Source: Antitrichia curtipendula
Taxonomy: Eukaryota; Streptophyta; Bryopsida; Hypnales; Leucodontaceae
Direction: 5' to 3'
Length of the DNA: 64,000 bases
Assembly: GCA_951230915.1 (NCBI GenBank)
Contig: OX579635.1
Location: 21,514,001-21,578,000, forward strand
A program made the position numbers and the translations under genes. Positions 3 through 57,718 of the stretch are shown here, piece after piece (position 1 is the first letter of the stretch; each line of letters starts with the position of its first letter). The notes beneath the pieces were generated by a model. It did no database searches, was not told the DNA's origin, and worked only from the letters and a program-made list of their open reading frames with translations.

Positions 3-1295
3 CGTACGTTTGGTACAGGGCCAGGTATGGCCTTCATTATAGTTCCTGACAACGTCACCTTAGGAGCTTCCGGAGACTACATGGGACTCATAACCTCCGA
101 AACCTCCGGACCCGGAAAGAATTATGAATCTGATAAACATACCTTCGGTGTGGAATTGGACACCTACAGGAACACGGAGTTCCACGATCCCAGCAGTAAT
201 CATATTGGTATTAACTTGGCCAGTATGAAATCTACTTATTCGTTTACGCCTGCCTACAGCTTGGCTTCAAGAAGCCAACTCCAGCAAATCTGGATTGATT
301 ATGATGAAACCGACTCTCGTATGGATATCTACTTTGCAAACTATAAGGAGCGCAAGCCTGATAAGCCACAAGGAACACAGAGCGGACTTGATTTATCGCT
401 TTTAAAGGAGAAGATGTGCACTGGTTTCTCATCTGCAAATTACAACTCAAAACATTCCGATTTTCCCTATGTTTGCGCATGGAGCTTCAGCAACGACGGC
501 AGTCCAGCGCCATCAATTCTTACGGCCCAAGACGAGCGGAAGAAGAAGCACTCGGGGATACATGTGGGAGTCCCTGTATTGCTAATAGTGTCTGTTGGAA
601 TGATTATCTGCATAATTGTTTCACTATGTTGGTGTAGATTTGTGCGCCGTCCTCTACGTATTTTCATATCCCATGCAGGTGGTCCGGATGGATCTCAGAA
701 AAACTTTCCAACATGGCTAGACGAAAGAATGAGGACATGGCCCTGGTCCGTTGCCAAGTCTCGTGTCCGAATCTTTTTTGACACAGAAGATGTTGAAATG
801 GGCAAATCGATTGCAAAGGAAATCTTAAGAGAGTTAGCAAGATTTGATGTGGGGGTCGTGGTGGTGACCAATGCTTTCTTTGCAGCGAAGTGGCCTATGA
901 CAGAGTTGATTGCTTTTGTGGAAGCTCAGACGAAAGATCCTACGGATAGAATTCGAGTATTACCTCTGTTCTACGAGCTCTCACCAGAAGAAGTAAGGGC
1001 TCATCTGGTCGGAAACACTTGGGAAGGTCGTTGGGAGGCAATGAGCAAGGGTAATCACCCTCTCCCGGTGGAAAAGTGTAGACAAGCGGTGACTTGGCTT
1101 TGCCAACAAAGAGGTATTCCATATGGTTATAAGAAACGCCATCAAGACAAAGTCTACATAGAGACCATCTGTAAGGAAGTCGATGAAATTCTGTGCAAAG
1201 AGGAGGGCTTTGCATCGTACGTCATCGGGGCTGTGAAGACCTACTGCGGTATTCCTACTCACTCTAAACCGGGAATGACAAGTCCACGAAACTGA
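3..1295 (+). CDS. L-type lectin-TM-TIR receptor-like protein, copy 1 (5' end outside window)
   Basis: The open frame enters from the left edge at base 3 and ends with TGA at 1293-1295; the first ATG, at 27, is internal. Against copy 2 at 48582, about 120 N-terminal residues (signal peptide and first lectin strands) lie outside the window. Counting from the ATG at 27, residues 1-155 are legume-lectin: GPGMAF at the start and the metal-site block ELDT...N...D...NHIGIN at 43-63. Residues about 179-202 form one hydrophobic span followed by basic residues (RFVRR), giving an outside-lectin, inside-TIR topology. The TIR domain runs from RIFISH (211) to about 340; Glu293 in KWPMTEL sits where TIR NADases have their catalytic Glu. 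A kinase would be expected after the membrane span of a lectin receptor kinase, and there is none. The visible part has no intron. Role inferred: cell-surface glycan sensing linked to TIR signalling. Confidence 0.85.
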   Translation, partial: RTFGTGPGMAFIIVPDNVTLGASGDYMGLITSETSGPGKNYESDKHTFGVELDTYRNTEFHDPSSNHIGINLASMKSTYSFTPAYSLASRSQLQQIWIDYDETDSRMDIYFANYKERKPDKPQGTQSGLDLSLLKEKMCTGFSSANYNSKHSDFPYVCAWSFSNDGSPAPSILTAQDERKKKHSGIHVGVPVLLIVSVGMIICIIVSLCWCRFVRRPLRIFISHAGGPDGSQKNFPTWLDERMRTWPWSVAKSRVRIFFDTEDVEMGKSIAKEILRELARFDVGVVVVTNAFFAAKWPMTELIAFVEAQTKDPTDRIRVLPLFYELSPEEVRAHLVGNTWEGRWEAMSKGNHPLPVEKCRQAVTWLCQQRGIPYGYKKRHQDKVYIETICKEVDEILCKEEGFASYVIGAVKTYCGIPTHSKPGMTSPRN

Positions 1296-16329: not shown

Positions 16330-18401
16330 CTATGACCAGAGGGCATCGGCCGGCCACGACATAGCCACCAGATTTTTGTGCTGCAACGGAGACATCGGCA
16401 TCGACATCAACTGCAGTAACATCTGGAAACTGGTGTCCCCGAGATCCGCCAAGCCATTGGTGAAGCTAGTGAAGTCTGTGCTCAAGAAATCATCTTCTGA
16501 ATCTAGTCCTTGTGGCAAGACACTCTCGGGTGAGTAAGCATACGACGATTCATGCTTCACGGAGTCGTCTGCAACACTAGTCTCTTTCGCAACAGATGTC
16601 GACCAGGTAGAGTAGTACCCTGCTTCCAGTGACTGGTGGTCGGAGCAATCGTCAAGACAAGCTGTCCCTTCGCTGCTGCAAGGCTCCGATGGAGTGGCTT
16701 CGCCGAGAGGTTGGAATCTGGGGTACTCGGAGAACATGGGGACTTCTAGTGATGAGGACGCCGCTAGGCCTTCAGCATATTCGGGAAATGAAGAGGCGCC
16801 CGGGTTTGTGCTTAAAATTGCTTCAGAGGCGAATCTTGTGGTATTACTGGAGCTCGGTTCCAAGGCTAAATTCAAGGCTGAATCCCGAGCTGAGAAGGAC
16901 AGGGGTATGGCAGTGACTTGATCGCCTGGCGTGGTGTTGAGCTTTCGCCGCAAACGAGAGTTCCAATAGTTTTTGATCTCGTTGTCTGTGCGGCCTGGAA
17001 TGCGACCTGCGATCAATGCCCACCTGCACATTACACACCCGGAGTTTGTTAGATTAAGTCATTTAGAGGTACCGATACGATTGCAAGAAAATATTTGTAG
17101 TGCTTGTACTATTCCTAGCGTACGTTTTGATTCATTGTTAGAAATAGAGCGGCAGTTGTCACTTCTCATCCCTCATCCCTTATGCATGGATGGATGTTAA
17201 TATTGTTCATTAGCATGTCATTGGTGAACGATCAGCATGTCTCGACAGCCATCTTGCTCTAATACCAATCCTTTTGACTGCTGCAACATCTTGCAAGCAT
17301 TGCACCTCCGAGACACTGATACTGCAATATATTTTTGAAGAGTAGTTTCAAAATAGTTAATGTTTTTTTGGTAAGAAACGAAGATTATAATCAGCGACTA
17401 GAAGATTTAACCCTAGGAAGATCGAGTATATAATAAATCATTAGGATACTGAGACGAATTTACAACCAAGAATTATCTGACAGTGAAAATTTGTTTCAAT
17501 TTTCAATTGTGTAGAAATACATGTGCATGGAAATCTATTTTTGATGCTTCTTATGGCTAATTAATCTTAGTAGAAGAACTTACTCTCAAAATTTCAAATC
17601 TTGGAATTTCATAATTTTAGTACTCAAAGTACTCCAAATCATGGAACTCCAAAACGTGAAAAGTTAGCACAATTTTGTTTGTACACAAGATTATTTTTCA
17701 AATTATGAAGATTATGAAGTAAAACTGAAGATGTGATGTGTACTTTAATCTTTCACTCTTTTCTGGGCTATATAGGATCACTACTGCAAATTTCTTGGAA
17801 ATTGGATTAACACACAACCTATGAGATCAGCATAGTACAAGTGTTTCTTGTAATCACTCTCATGTAGACGGCTAGGAGGTTATGGATTCTATCTTGGCAA
17901 TTTAGAACCAACCATGATTTAAGCTTCCGAAAATGGCCATGGTTTGCTAGCTAGAGGTGTATGTCGAATCAGGAAGATGCAGTACCTGTTTCCCAGAAGA
18001 GAGTGTAATTTGGTGATCAGCTCATCCTCTTCAGGCGAGAAATTGCCCCGTTTGAGATCGGGTCGCAGGTAATTCATCCAGCGTAGCCTGCAGCTCTTCC
18101 TACATCTTTGCAACCCTGCAATTCAACCACGCATTCAACCTCCATTAGACACCACTGCACGCAACCCCTGTCTACACTACGATTGACCAAGTATTGGAGG
18201 ATACGTGCATTCAAATGTAATTATTCTGTAATTAACTCGGATCATCTTCATTGCAACACCTGCTAGTTTGGGGAGGGTGCGCCAGTTCCCTTCTCCGTTC
18301 GCTTTGATGAAGGCAGTCAGAATGGCGTCCTCCTCTTCAGTCCATGGCCCTTTGTTGAGACCTCCTTCGGATACCCTACTTGGAATTGGAGCCCTTCCCA
18401 T
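16330..18401 (-). CDS. R2R3-MYB transcription factor, bHLH-interacting type
   Basis: Three exons on the minus strand: 18260-18401, 17986-18115 and 16330-17023 (142, 130 and 694 nt), joined by GT-AG introns of 144 and 962 bp. The joined frame is exactly 321 codons plus TAG. Intron positions and the 130-nt second exon are the standard R2R3-MYB pattern. R2 spans about residues 15-65 ([11 protein letters not shown] to RSCRLRW-type end) and R3 about 68-116, ending [16 protein letters not shown]3 contains the bHLH-binding signature [DE]Lx2[RK]x3Lx6Lx3R (ELITK...GR), typical of flavonoid, proanthocyanidin or epidermal-fate MYBs. R2 has [10 protein letters not shown] rather than RCGKSCRLRW, a variant also seen in PAP1/AN2 anthocyanin MYBs. 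The acidic, Ser-rich C terminus lacks a subgroup motif I recognise. Nuclear DNA-binding regulator; exact pathway inferred. Confidence 0.93.
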
Positions 18402-34067: not shown

Positions 34068-37000
34068 TTAAAGCTCCCCAGAGACAATTTCTGGCGGAAG
34101 GCTAACATCCATTAGCCTTCCACCCAAAAGTAAACGCAAAAGGTCCTTCAAGAGGATCCCAGCCACTTCAAAGGAGCGCTTTACATACTCCAGAAGGCTA
34201 GGTTGTGTGTACTTCGTAAAACGCCAGTCTTTGTTGGCAATGGCCCTCGGAAGTGGCGTGTCAAGCGACTCTGTTCACAACGACAGTTAGGCATTGCAGG
34301 GAGGGCAAAAGGAATGTAGAAGCTCAATGCTGAGACTAAACCTCACTAACCCCTAAAGGATCAAGTATTCATGACGAAATCAAATAAGGCCAAATTTTAC
34401 ATCCCCAGAATAAATGAACAACATTGCATGTGTTGATGAGAAAATAAACTAAACAAAACCTACTCAAAACTGCAATAAAGACATGAGGCCCAATTTGGGC
34501 CTCTTGATCCTTCCACTTAGAACTGAATATCTTGGTAAATACATATGGTGCATCAAGCCATTTGTGGAACTTACCAGCCCACATACGCTTATCTTGAGCA
34601 GCAGCACGACAGAAAGGGCGAACCCCACCCCTCTTTATCTCTTCTTGTAATGTTTGCCATTCCCCTTCTCGTTGCTCTCTGGTTATGATACCTGACTTCG
34701 AGATCTGTAGGCATCACCTCTAATATATTCAAATGCTGACTAAAGCTAGAGTACAAGAATTCTAAGGATATTTGCATGCAGACATGAGGAACAGCTAAAG
34801 GTCGTTCATTTTAAAATATAGGAAGTGGAATATACCCTCAATCTTCAAAACGTTCAAATATTTCAGAATAATACCTGCTGATACAAATAGTAAGATGGTC
34901 GAGGAATTCGAGTCAGATTATTTGATCTATCAACGTCAACAAGGCCAAACTTAGGGCAATAACCGTCGGCCCACTCCCAGTTGTCTGAAATGGTCCATTG
35001 CAGATAACCATCTACTGGGACACCCTGCACACAATCCATCCCTCATAGTAAGTGTGGTGGTAACCATCCTTAAAATGGACACTAGCAATGGGATTTGTTT
35101 ATCTTGGGTGAATATAATGCATTTGGAATTTATCTTCAACGAGCAACTACAAGTCCAATTCATGAGTCGAATTGCATGATTCAATGCCAAAACGAAGAAG
35201 ACAGACTTTAGTCCAACCCCAAGTTGAAAGATGTAATTGAAGGAACTATCAAACCTGCTGAATAGCGGCATGGATGGCAAGCAAGTGTTCAACAAGGTAT
35301 GGCCGACGAATGATGTCACGGGCATCTGCAAACCCATTCTCGGTGACAATGTAACGAAGCTTCGGATGCTTTGCCTTGTAGCGGTTATGGAATTGGACGA
35401 GGACCTGGAAGAGGCCGTCAGGGTATACACCCCGCCCGGCCTCACTGTACTCTTCTTCTGGAACTAAGATGAGCCCTGCTCCTGATAATATTTCCTGCAT
35501 CCGAAACTCAAGGATCAATGCTCTGAAGCTGGGATTAGCTCAGTAATAAGGAATCGAGAGAATACAGACCGCGAAATAGACGACAAATACATGAGGTTAT
35601 GAAGCCTGACCTGGCCATAGTAATTGATTCCACAGTAATCCAGGTACCCTTGAATAGAATCTATCCAGTGGAACTCTGTCAGAAGTTTTGTTATGTAAAC
35701 AATGGGAAGATCAAGAAGGCCATAAGGTTGAATCACTCCCACGTGATGTGCCACCCCAACAACTGCCTTCTGCGCCCTGCAAATTGAACGGAAGTCAGAT
35801 CTTTGAACCCCTAAAGGACAGATTTCATGGGTATTAAGATGACCAACTTGATTGATCATAGTGCAAAAATACAATAGTGAAGAAGCTAAAGCACATACCA
35901 CCAAAATCAATGAAGAGCATTGCATGTGTTGGTGAAAGAATAATTAACACTGAACAAAAAGAAAATCCTCGAATGAGTCATTCAAAAGTCCCAAGAAAAA
36001 CATGACGCTCATACTGGGCATTCGAGAAGCTTAAGACAGCGTAATTACAGTCAATTACTTTACTCCTATAGCATTGTAGAGATTACATGGAATTTTCTGG
36101 TTAGCAGATGCCCTTCCCCGATTCAAAGAGACAAAAAGTTACAGCATGAACCCACCCTTCATGGAGAGCCTTGTATGCAGCTATGTGAGCTTCGGTGATT
36201 GAGACCATGGCCCGGCCATAGTGACCCCAGGGCGTAAAGCAGAAGATTGACTCCAAGATGGATGGTGTGTTACCAGGAGGCCAGGTCCCAGAGCAATGCG
36301 AAAGAATGACGAAGATATGTGGCTCGTTAAACGTGACCCAATAATCCACATACTCCCCAAATTGTTCTTTTGAAAACCTGAGCCATTCAAATTCACGTGA
36401 GCAGTCCAACTCATAACCTTCACTCATCATCAAGAACGGCATATTCAATGAATTCTCGAATCCAAAAAAAGTCCAGTGAGAATCATCAGTGGACACACAC
36501 ACGTCACCTGGCAAAGTCTTCAAAGTATTTAATAGTACGAGGGTCAATCCACCCTCCATAAGTCAGAGCCCACTTCGGCAATGAATGGTGAAAAAGAGTC
36601 AGCATGATTCGCATGTTATTCGCCTTCACCGTCTGAAGAATCCACTTGTAATGCTCCACTGCTTCCTTGTCAACCTTGCCATACAATCACCATATCCAAA
36701 ACCTTAATCCCCTAAAAGACCAATGAATCATATGATCAATTCAATTGATCATATTGCAAAACATATACTCCCTCCGTCCCAAAATGATTGTCCACTTTGA
36801 ATGTCATGTATTTATAAGGTTGTTTTGAGTAAATAAAAAAAATACTTCCTCGTAACTTTATTTAGGTTGCAATGAACGCATGCAATGTTCTTCATTGATT
36901 CTGGTGATATAAACTTTGAAACCTTTCTTAATTATGTTTTCCACGATATGGTCAATGAAATTGGGTCAAAAAAATATCAACAAAACTGTGGACAATCATT

Positions 37001-48581: not shown

Positions 48582-50519
48582 ATGGGAAAATCCCCAAGAT
48601 TGGCGATTGTTTTGGCTGGGGCTCGCCTATTTTGCTTAGGTGTGCTGGCCCTTCTCCTAAGCTTACCATTTGAATCCAGCGTCACTTTCGCTTTTAATGG
48701 CTTTCAGGGGAATTCTCTTCACTTAGTGTCTAATAGAAGCTGGATTCTCAACGGCACTACTAGTTGTTTCAAATTCGAGCCTACAGAATTTGATTTGTAT
48801 TACGGCACAACCTCTGGTCGACTTCTCTATCCATTTGCCATGCAAATGGTAGATCCTGGTTCCACAACTGTAAAATCTTTCAATACATCTTTCATCTATC
48901 AGATACAGTGTACATCTGTTGCCTTTGGTACAGGGCCAGGTATGGCCTTCATTATAGTTCCTAACGACATCACCATAGGAGCTCCCCTAGACTTCATGGG
49001 ACTTGTAAGAGCATGGCCAGCCATCTTGTAAAACGGATGACTTGTTGCCACCGGCTTGCAAAATTGCCCCACCCGTCTTGCATAATGGATGAACTTGTTA
49101 AGAGGCCAAGCCAAAAGTTGCCCATGACTTGCAAAACCGGGCTCTTTTGCAAGCCAAGGGGCGGCTTGCAAACCGCATGAGACAAGTACCTTTTGCACTT
49201 TCCCAACAAACAAGGACTTGATCCGTGAATGTGGACGTAGTTGATTGGGTGGCGATGGCCTCTTAAGAGGCTATGGGTGGGGCAATCCATCATCCCCGGC
49301 TTGCAAATTGGATTGACTGGCTGGCAAATTGGCTTGCATTTTGCCAGACGCATGGGGATGCTCTAACCGAGGAAACCTCCAAAACCACAAAAAATTATGA
49401 ATCTGATAACCATACCTTTGGTGTGGAATTGGACACCTTCATGAACCCGGAGTTCAACGATACCGATGATAATCATATTGGTATTAACTTGGCCAGTATG
49501 AATTCTACTTATTTGTTTGAGCTTGTCTACAGCTTGGCTTCAAGCAGTGCCATTCTATACCAACAAATCTGGATCGATTATTTTGAAGCCGACTCTCGTA
49601 TGGACATCTACTATGCAAACTATAAGCAAGGCAAGCCTACTAAGCCACAAGGATCACAAAGTGGGCTAGATTTGTCGCTATTGAAGGAAAACATATTTGT
49701 AGGGTTCGCCTCTGCGAATAAGATAGGAAGTACCGATGTTCTGTATGTTTGCGCATGGAGCTTTAGCAACGACGACATTCCAACGCCATCAATTGTTGTT
49801 GCCCAGGATGCACCTCCATCGAGTATTCCTTCTGAAGGCCCCAATAGAGAACCTTCAAAGAAAATGAACATGGGGATACTTGTGGGAGTCTTTGTAGCAA
49901 CTATGCTGGTTTTTGTATTTTCTGGACTCTGCATATTTATTTTACGTTGTCATCATAGATTTTTGAGCCATCGAATTTTCATATCCCATACATGTAGTCC
50001 GGATGGATTTGAAAAGAACTTTCTAAGTTGGCTACATGAAGCAATGAAGACATATAAGTGGTCATTTTCAACTCAGTCCAATATCGCATTCTTTTTTTAT
50101 AAAGATCACATTGATTATGGCGAAATTTTGCTGAGAAAATCATTGAAGAATTAGAAAGATTTGATGTGGGGCTCGTGGTTGTGACCGAGTATTACTTTAA
50201 AAGGAAGTGGCCTATGACAGAGTTAATTGCTTTTGTGAAAGCTCATGAGAACTCTCCTATGGGACGATTCCGGGTGTTACCTCTGTTCTACAGGCTCACA
50301 CCAGAAGAAGTGAATGGTCATTTGAAAGGCAAAACTTGGGATCTTGATTGGGAGGAAATGAGCACGGGTAATCATCCTCTCGAGGTGGAAAAGTGTAGAC
50401 ACGCAGTGGATTGGCTCTGCCAACAAAGAGGTATTTTATACGATTTCAAGAGACTCGATTGTAACAAAGAATACACCTTAGTAATTTGTAAGGATTTAGA
50501 TAAGCTTCTACTCAAATAA
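48582..50519 (+). pseudogene. L-type lectin-TM-TIR receptor-like gene, copy 2 (MITE-split, TIR frameshift)
   Basis: The ATG at 48582 starts a signal peptide (hydrophobic residues about 8-28), then lectin strands ending ...DFMGL at 49004. A 355-bp MITE interrupts here. The lectin resumes in another frame (NYESDNHTFGVELDTF...NHIGINLASM), followed by a Pro/Ser linker, one membrane span (about 49870-49950) and TIR (RIFISH at 49973). Excising GT at 49005 to AG at 49346-49347 rejoins the frame exactly. Near 50125-50130 one base is missing relative to copy 1. That frame ends at 50154, before the catalytic-Glu region, while KWPMTEL and the rest of TIR stay open in the next frame to TAA at 50517-50519. 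The product would be a membrane lectin with half a TIR, unless the deletion is an assembly error. Proposed role as for copy 1. Confidence 0.85.
49009..49363. mobile_element. Tourist-like (PIF/Harbinger) MITE inside lectin-TIR copy 2
   Basis: TAA (49006-49008), then GAGCATGGCCA; right end GGGGATGCTC, then TAA (49364-49366). Copy 1 has a single TAA at the same codon position (CTCATAACC). 3-bp TAA duplication is the PIF/Harbinger signature. 355 bp, non-coding, with internal repeats of GGCTTGCAAA. Confidence 0.9.
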
Positions 50520-55914: not shown

Positions 55915-56940
55915 ATGGATCGTGAGGGGTCCAGGGAAGAAGCAAGTCCTCCATCATTGGAGGGGATTGGGCCTGAATGGGCTGTATTCATTCAACAACA
56001 GGTCCAGTCCATTTTTCGTGAGGCCATTCCGCAACTCGTTCAACAACTTTCAGAACGTGCAGCTACGCTGCAGAACCTTGCATCTTCTTCGGTTCCAAGG
56101 GAGGGGGATGATCGAACTAAGCGTGGGGGGAATGATTTTGAGCATTTGGGGTTTGAGAGCAGGGAGCTTAAAGTGGCCACACCTGATAAATTCTATGGAA
56201 AGAAGGGCGGCGAAATATATAAGTGGTTTGCTCAGCTTCGATTGGTCTTCAGGGGTAAGCCATGAACCTATCGTTGTGATGAGGATAAAATTGCTTACGC
56301 TTTATCCTATATGGCGGGGGCAGCACAAAATTGGGCAATGCCCATACTTCAGGCGCTTGATGAAGGACGCTCCCATGATTTATTACATAATTACGATCGT
56401 TTTCGAGATGCGGTAATTTCAGTTTATGGAGATATGGATCGGAGGAGCAATGCCGAAGATCGCCTTGGGAAGATTCGGCAAACGGGATCGGTGTCAACAT
56501 ATATCTCCACCTTCAATGAGCATGCGGCCCAAGTAGATTGGAATGAGTCAAGTTTGGTGGCAAGATTCCGTGGAGGCCTCAAGGACGAGATTTTGGATTC
56601 GATAGCAATGGCCGAGACTCAACCTTGTAGGCTTCACGAATGGATGGCCATGGCGACTCGAATTGATGAACGATTGTGGTCCCGACGTCAAAATAGGCGT
56701 CCTTCATTCCCCGTCTCCAACTCAAGAGACCGCACCATACGGGCTCCAACGTTGCAAGGGGAGTCAGGTCCCACACCGATGGAGCTTGATGTGGTGCATG
56801 TATCAACAGTGCTAGCAAAGGGTACTGCAGAGCGCCTCGAGTATCAACGGCAAGGTAAATGTTGGGGTTGTGGGCAGGTGGGGCATGTTCGAGCCAAATG
56901 TCCCACCAATCCTTCCAAACCTTGTCCATCTCCGCCCTAA
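55915..56940 (+). pseudogene. Ty3/gypsy-like gag with one in-frame stop
   Basis: One frame runs from ATG 55915 to TAA at 56938-56940, broken only by TGA at 56263-56265. Before the stop are a Gln-rich helical segment and a capsid-like start (KFYGKKGGEIYKWFAQLRL). After it follow ALSYMAGAAQNWA, further gag helices and a zinc knuckle CWGCGQVGHVRAKC (C-x2-C-x4-H-x4-C). TGA could have arisen from CGA by a single C-to-T change, the usual decay of methylated CpG. Length without the stop is 341 codons, normal for a gypsy Gag. The GC content is visibly higher than the neighbourhood. Confidence 0.88.
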
Positions 56941-57718
56941 GGACAACAAGTGAAGAAATGTCAGATCCGGGAAAAGACAAAGCCCGGGACTGAGTGCACT
57001 TTCTCGGTACCCGGGTCCGAGTCAAACGGCAATAGCTACTGCATGGAGATGGGATATAGTAGGAGTTGGGGCAGGTTTCCAACCGAATTTAGACTTGGAG
57101 GATAATAATCTACATCAGTTGGAAGGTGACAAGGTATGGGAAGGTGAGGTAGTTAGCTGTGTCGAACAGCAGGAAGAGCCAGGAATACCCCTCTATCTAC
57201 GAGCTATGACTACGCCCGAGTCACACTTAACTTTGGAGTGCACAATCAATTCGGTGAAAGCTTGCAGCCTCGTGGACTCAGGGGCAACAGGGATCTTTGT
57301 GCATCCTAAATTTGCTCGTGAGTGTCAAGCAGAAATCAAGCCTAAGATCATTCCAAGAGAAGTGAGGGTGATTGACGGCCGAAGAATTAATTCTGGCCTT
57401 ATTACTCACGAAGCTATTTTGAACCTGGACATTGATGGCCATCAAGAGTTGCTTGTGGCTGACATAACGAACACGGGAAGGTATCCTTGTATTTTGGGAA
57501 TGCCTTGGTTAGGCTTTCATGACCCTACTATTCGGTGGGGCCAAAAAGAAGTAACATTTGATTCAAATTATTGCCGAGAGACTTGTCTGCGACGTCCCAC
57601 AGAGGAACGCAATGGCGGGGATCGCCGGTACATCCCGAATAAGAAAAGAGTGCATGGTGGAGGCGGATCTCCCCGACCAACCATGCAGGCAAGCTCGGTG
57701 AAGGCTAAGTGTAGTTAA
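56941..57718 (+). pseudogene. Retropepsin-like protease region of the same element, truncated
   Basis: This frame is open for some distance upstream of 57095 and ends with TAA at 57716-57718; it is shifted relative to gag. SLVDSGATGIF (catalytic DSG at about 57275-57283) and CILGMPWLGFHDP are the two halves of a retroviral-type aspartic protease. The tail VTFDSNYC resembles gypsy polyproteins, especially fungal-type ones. No reverse transcriptase, RNase H or integrase follows, so the element is cut off here. The gag-pro shift may be a natural +1 site or a mutation. Confidence 0.8.

Follow-up and report, generated by a model that had tools for sequence, protein, structure and literature searches.

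A candidate plant cell-surface receptor with an L-type lectin ectodomain and a predicted cytosolic TIR domain

Introduction

The receptors known from plant cell surfaces signal by way of kinases, and plant TIR-NB-ARC and TIR-only proteins are intracellular. Passages of two published accounts describe plant TIRs as acting in NLRs or TIR-only proteins (PMC9806590, PMC9153377). The locus described here raises the question of whether a single plant gene can place a lectin outside the cell and a TIR domain beneath the membrane. A membrane TIR receptor of this kind would unite the surface-receptor and TIR layers in one molecule, would mean that the Toll-like layout arose independently, and would make TIR signalling in plants without EDS1 testable.

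The gene lies at the left edge of the window, the whole stretch of 64,000 bases that was analysed (C3:21514001-21578000, from a genome of 400 Mb in 303 contigs). A preliminary description of this DNA had reported a lectin-membrane-TIR arrangement and interpreted it as a surface receptor; we confirm the observation, and the interpretation is partly supported. On balance, and with modest confidence, we think that the gene probably encodes a single-pass plasma-membrane receptor, with a secreted L-type lectin ectodomain, one membrane helix, a cytosolic TIR and an NAD(P)-cleaving output. In favour of this reading are the presence of lectin and TIR in one frame, a second intact copy, three proteins from outside the genome, the membrane span, a conserved Glu and a distinct TIR clade.

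Results

Domain organization of the main gene

Within the window, the open frame and Pfam matches define the 3' part of a lectin-membrane-TIR gene at 3..1295 on the + strand. This part comprises 430 of 542 codons and the stop; its 430 residues are open as far as the left window edge, and the first 112 codons precede the window. In the genome the 542-codon frame is uninterrupted, its ATG lying 334 bases ahead of the window and its stop at 1293-1295. Pfam supports both families named in the preliminary description, with Lectin_legB at aa 38-283 (E 8.6e-41) and TIR at aa 363-480 (E 1.5e-8), joined by TIR_2 at aa 332-440 (E 3.9e-8), each above cut-off. The window part gave the same three families above the curated cut-offs (Lectin_legB, E 1.1e-31; TIR, E 1e-8; TIR_2, E 2.4e-8), and Lectin_L-type_dom was matched below cut-off in both the window part and the full frame. 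Only lectin and TIR families matched the full frame at E up to 0.01, with no kinase, NB-ARC or LRR match. The description of lectin motifs, one membrane span and a TIR in a single frame, with the TIR in place of the usual kinase, is thus borne out.

The portion of the Lectin_legB domain within the window lies at 18..515 (+; aa 6-171). A motif search places the Ca/Mn-binding motif of legume lectins, ELDTYRNTEFHDPSSNH, at 153..203 (+), so that the metal-binding residues are present in the main lectin; the ligands compared are those listed for a legume lectin in part of PMC12355970. A predicted membrane span, VGVPVLLIVSVGMIICIIV, occupies 564..620 (+), with a hydropathy of 2.97 across 19 residues. 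The TIR domain follows at 660..1106 (+), where Pfam TIR and TIR_2 jointly cover aa 220-368 of the window part and a family profile matches solved plant TIRs. In the full protein, hydropathy, the sole basis for the signal-peptide and membrane calls, gives one N-terminal hydrophobic segment and a single internal one at aa 300-318, in line with the layout first proposed. The N-terminal segment is taken as a signal peptide, and the resulting order is signal peptide (predicted), lectin, membrane, TIR.

Elsewhere in the window, Pfam identified a MYB-type gene exon at 16330-17058 (-), a family 1 glycosyl hydrolase fragment at 36101-36562 (-), and retrotransposon gag and aspartyl protease frames at 56266-57718 (+).

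Copies in the genome and relatives in protein collections

A second intact copy (L002) of 547 codons, 96% identical to the main gene, starts about 14 kb upstream, outside the window. The preliminary description had pointed to a second paralogue with a signal peptide; in the window this copy lies at 48582-50519. The predicted signal peptide is there, together with the N-terminal half of the lectin, at 48582..49004 (+; Lectin_legB E 2.6e-10), but the copy is decayed and is no intact gene. Comparison by blastn shows that the lectin is disrupted at 49004..49363 (+) by some 360 inserted bases whose inverted ends match imperfectly. The remaining lectin, the membrane span and the start of the TIR are traced by frame and Pfam at 49369..50154 (+), as far as a frame change between about 50115 and 50154; the remaining TIR, in a different frame, occupies 50118..50519 (+), with TIR_2 below cut-off and an early stop at its end. 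The inverted ends of the insert are of the AGAGCATGG... / ...CCCCATGCTCT type; it occurs as a single copy in the window and is perhaps a MITE.

Five further loci were seen in the genome, all decayed, rearranged or lacking the lectin core, in a six-frame search whose locus counts are lower bounds. Two loci on C8 have a signal-peptide-like frame, a lectin tail and a TIR, the lectin core being absent. Two on C6 have the TIR ahead of lectin fragments, with stops in one or both parts. The chromosome-9 (C9) locus keeps lectin, membrane span and TIR in order, but with two in-frame stops and a frame change. At the C8 locus L023 (C8:4145001-4154990; L004), the signal-peptide frame passes directly to the lectin tail, so that the locus represents a receptor variant without a lectin, and the TIR frame continues several hundred residues beyond the TIR, with more hydrophobic segments.

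Relatives were sought among 5.8 billion proteins, and one of the searches scored the best 7,997 candidates. Both domains occur in a single frame in three proteins from outside collections: P0001 (538 aa, ENA), which is 82% identical to the window part of the main gene; P0010 (607 aa, Logan, six member sequences), with a long proline-rich stalk; and P0012 (558 aa, JGI, nine member sequences). In P0012 a short stretch, VEFDDSDVHDTLG, is tandemly repeated directly ahead of the lectin metal site. P0002 (TIR) and P0003 (lectin) each lie on a JGI contig of 4,376 bases and, because of this equal length, probably share one contig. P0005 and P0006 are lectin-only and P0004 and P0011 TIR-only, while the two named matches are a flowering-plant lectin (P0008) and a flowering-plant lectin kinase (P0009). 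A hydrophobic tail closes the lectin frames of P0003 and P0006; they could represent a lipid-anchored form of the lectin, or the frame could read on into an intron. Together, the C8 loci and P0002/P0003 suggest that an intron separates lectin from stalk, an arrangement that would make lectin exchange easier.

The TIR domain and its catalytic-type glutamate

A profile of nine family TIRs matched 22 solved sequences, best of all flax L6 (E 9.8e-12), followed among others by AT1G72930 (1.4e-10), RUN1 (1.9e-9) and several bacterial TIRs. In the profile alignment the Glu of KWPMTEL (aa 408-414 of the full protein) falls on the Glu of L6 KWCLMEL, the established NADase Glu, as the preliminary description had held for this site. 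The residue is E413, encoded at 903..905 (+), and by this alignment the main protein has the catalytic-type Glu of a TIR NADase. The motif itself varies, with Gly for Trp in C8b and Thr for Pro in P0004.

A structure model of the TIR alone, from an 8-row alignment, was of low confidence (pLDDT 48, pTM 0.43), which we count against a functional receptor. In a fold search this model matched six solved structures (E up to 0.001): L7 twice, L6, RUN1, Roq1 and one bacterial TIR. Normalized by query length, the TM-scores were 0.36-0.54, and the search lends weak support to the assignment. A full-length model of P0001 (7-row alignment, pLDDT 41) was discarded.

A tree of 31 TIRs separates the 12 of the family, at 100/100, from 19 others of the genome, which are a subset of its 37 further TIR matches. 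With L6 and AT1G72930 as outgroup, the same 12 form a clade at 98/97. The 31-TIR tree left out L053, L019 and L020, and the outgroup tree L051, L019 and L020 (no domain start matched). Half of the family TIRs (L001, L002, P0001, P0010, P0012 and C9) sit beside a lectin domain, within either one frame or one locus. The other rows are two from C8 with a lectin tail, one from C6 with a lectin fragment, P0002, whose lectin is probably on the same contig, and P0004 and P0011, for which none was seen.

The other genome TIRs bear on one alternative, that the receptor exists as described but uses its TIR as a scaffold, recruiting other TIR proteins by TIR-TIR contact as animal Toll-like receptors do. 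Possible partners exist, in that the genome has those 37 further TIR matches, and of the 19 that entered the first tree at least six (L051, L054, L056, L061, L062 and L066) have an NB-ARC match close by. The NADase-type Glu, however, is kept in all ten family TIRs checked, and we regard a pure scaffold as unlikely; an enzymatic TIR is the reading we carry forward.

Selection and decay within the family

The two intact copies differ at 35 bases, with a dN/dS of 0.67-0.80, rising to 1.08-1.81 in codons 1-110; against the decayed copy the ratio is 0.60-0.91, by segment. Among these intact and decayed copies there is no strong sign of purifying selection, and the values imply weak constraint or fast evolution rather than proof of function. 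Both comparisons count against a functional receptor, as does the number of intact loci, two of eight.

They also feed a second alternative, in which this is a young, fast-decaying family of little function, its tandem copies born by fusion and mostly dying. Six of the eight loci are broken, rearranged or without a lectin core, and dN/dS is 0.6-0.9, as such a family would have it. Against this stand the two intact genomic copies and the predicted proteins P0001 and P0010, which are uninterrupted at 18% and about 50% divergence, and this suggests selection. Decay of most copies is, moreover, usual in immune receptor families. We consider a family of little function improbable.

The lectin ligand site

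The preliminary description had proposed glycan sensing by the ectodomain, and this claim is weakened. At 21..23 (+), comparison of lectins shows a Pro codon in the main gene where the sugar-binding Asp usually sits (GPGMAF for GDGxAF). The Asp of this loop, the usual monosaccharide-binding residue of legume lectins, is found in none of nine family lectins, being replaced by Pro (7), Ser (1) or Ala (1). The same genome has it in five of six lectin-kinase frames, the sixth having Gly, and the flowering-plant-type kinases P0007 and P0009 have His at this place; loss of the Asp is thus not unique to the lectin-TIR family. Since all nine family lectins lack the residue, it is doubtful that they bind simple sugars, and their ligand is likely to be something else. 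The missing Asp also counts against a functional receptor.

An altered sugar site would also suit a protein that dampens other receptors, its ectodomain serving as a co-receptor or decoy and its cytosolic TIR signalling lost. With the Glu conserved, we hold this to be very improbable.

A divergent lectin within the family TIR clade

A tree of 22 lectins places eight of the family's in a single clade (97/99). The C9 lectin pairs instead with the genome lectin L046 (99/95), nested in a lectin-kinase-type clade (99/96), and constraining all nine family lectins into one clade was rejected (p-AU 2e-5). Because the C9 lectin falls outside the main lectin clade while the C9 TIR lies inside the family TIR clade, it seems that a single membrane-TIR unit has been joined to lectins of two kinds, the sole witness of the second being the broken C9 locus. 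This pairing suggests that the receptor family is modular.

The weakest alternative, that the assembly wrongly fused a lectin gene to a TIR gene, has practically no chance of being right and is excluded, with nothing found in its favour, because the identical join recurs in the second genomic copy and in P0001, P0010 and P0012. The argument from two copies in the preliminary description thus reached the right conclusion, but the proof comes from the upstream copy and the three outside proteins, the second copy of the window being decayed.

Discussion

We propose that an outside ligand, derived from the wall, a microbe or damage and perhaps no simple sugar, would cluster the ectodomains. Beneath the membrane, the TIRs could then self-associate and generate nucleotide signals by cleaving NAD(P), in the mode of a Toll-like receptor whose enzyme replaces adaptor recruitment. 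Direct coupling to TIR nucleotide signalling, bypassing a kinase step, is plausible from the predicted architecture. For fern and Ginkgo TIRs, the part of PMC11218826 considered here reports that the Glu is needed for cell death in tobacco relatives.

The output may be EDS1-independent, perhaps running through RPW8-type NLRs present in the genome. We propose this because EDS1 was not detected: a search of the genome for EDS1_EP gave no matches, a result to be read with its control, which was likewise matched in 0 of 14 genomes. Among 102 NB-ARC matches in the genome, six frames were scanned with Pfam, and three had RPW8 above cut-off. NB-ARC frames at C3:1118711, C3:1150739 and C3:1182767 have equal scores and a spacing of exactly 32,028 bases, and are a recent tandem repeat or an assembly duplicate; L071, the scanned one of the three, has an RPW8 domain. 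Dynein heavy chains, expected in a plant with swimming sperm, gave eight matches above cut-off, and together with the 400 Mb of genome they make a non-seed land plant the probable source. Passages of PMC9806590 and PMC11218826 report one TIR protein in Marchantia and expanded TIR-NLRs in mosses, so that our guess would be a moss.

A wider proposal is that non-seed land plants evolved Toll-like receptors of their own. A conserved membrane-TIR unit, onto which L-type lectins were swapped by domain or exon exchange, would link the surface to TIR nucleotides without a receptor kinase or EDS1. Such receptors would be convergent with those of animals and would constitute a type of plant pattern receptor that the reviews searched do not mention. 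We see this proposal as evenly poised between right and wrong.

Membrane TIRs as such are not new, since TIR proteins with a transmembrane region are reported, in the part of PMC9153377 considered, within a group spanning prokaryotes, oomycetes, plants and animals. Our literature search, based on portions of the sources, found no L-type-lectin/membrane/TIR receptor; supplementary tables of all lectin domain combinations (e.g. PMC6362431, PMC5485960) lay outside its scope and may hold an unremarked entry. New in this analysis are the evidence for a family, the finding that the window's second copy is decayed, the association of one TIR clade with two lectin kinds, and the change at the sugar site.

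Other plant proteins share parts of this architecture. A soybean GNA-TIR-NB-ARC gene has been reported. Arabidopsis TIR-Nictaba lectins (PP2-A5 type) also join a TIR and a lectin domain in one protein, but with a different lectin fold and an N-terminal TIR, and the extracts available describe no membrane receptor layout. A TIR-NBS-Lectin_legB-Pkinase class likewise combines TIR and Lectin_legB in one predicted protein, whereas NBS and kinase are present there and the class is listed as species-specific in the portion of PMC11126693 considered.

Like the L-LecRLKs, the main protein has Lectin_legB outside and one predicted membrane span, but it carries a TIR where they carry a kinase, and the main family lectins form a clade of their own, the C9 lectin alone lying inside the LecRLK-type clade. 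With plant TIR-NB-ARC and TIR-only proteins it shares a plant-type TIR with its Glu, the 19 genome TIRs standing next in the tree; unlike them, the lectin-TIR proteins form a separate TIR clade, and NB-ARC and repeats were not matched after the TIR. The predicted topology of ectodomain, one membrane span and cytosolic TIR is that of animal Toll-like receptors, but the ectodomain is a lectin rather than LRRs, none of which were matched, and the family TIRs match those of plant resistance proteins best, not those of animals.
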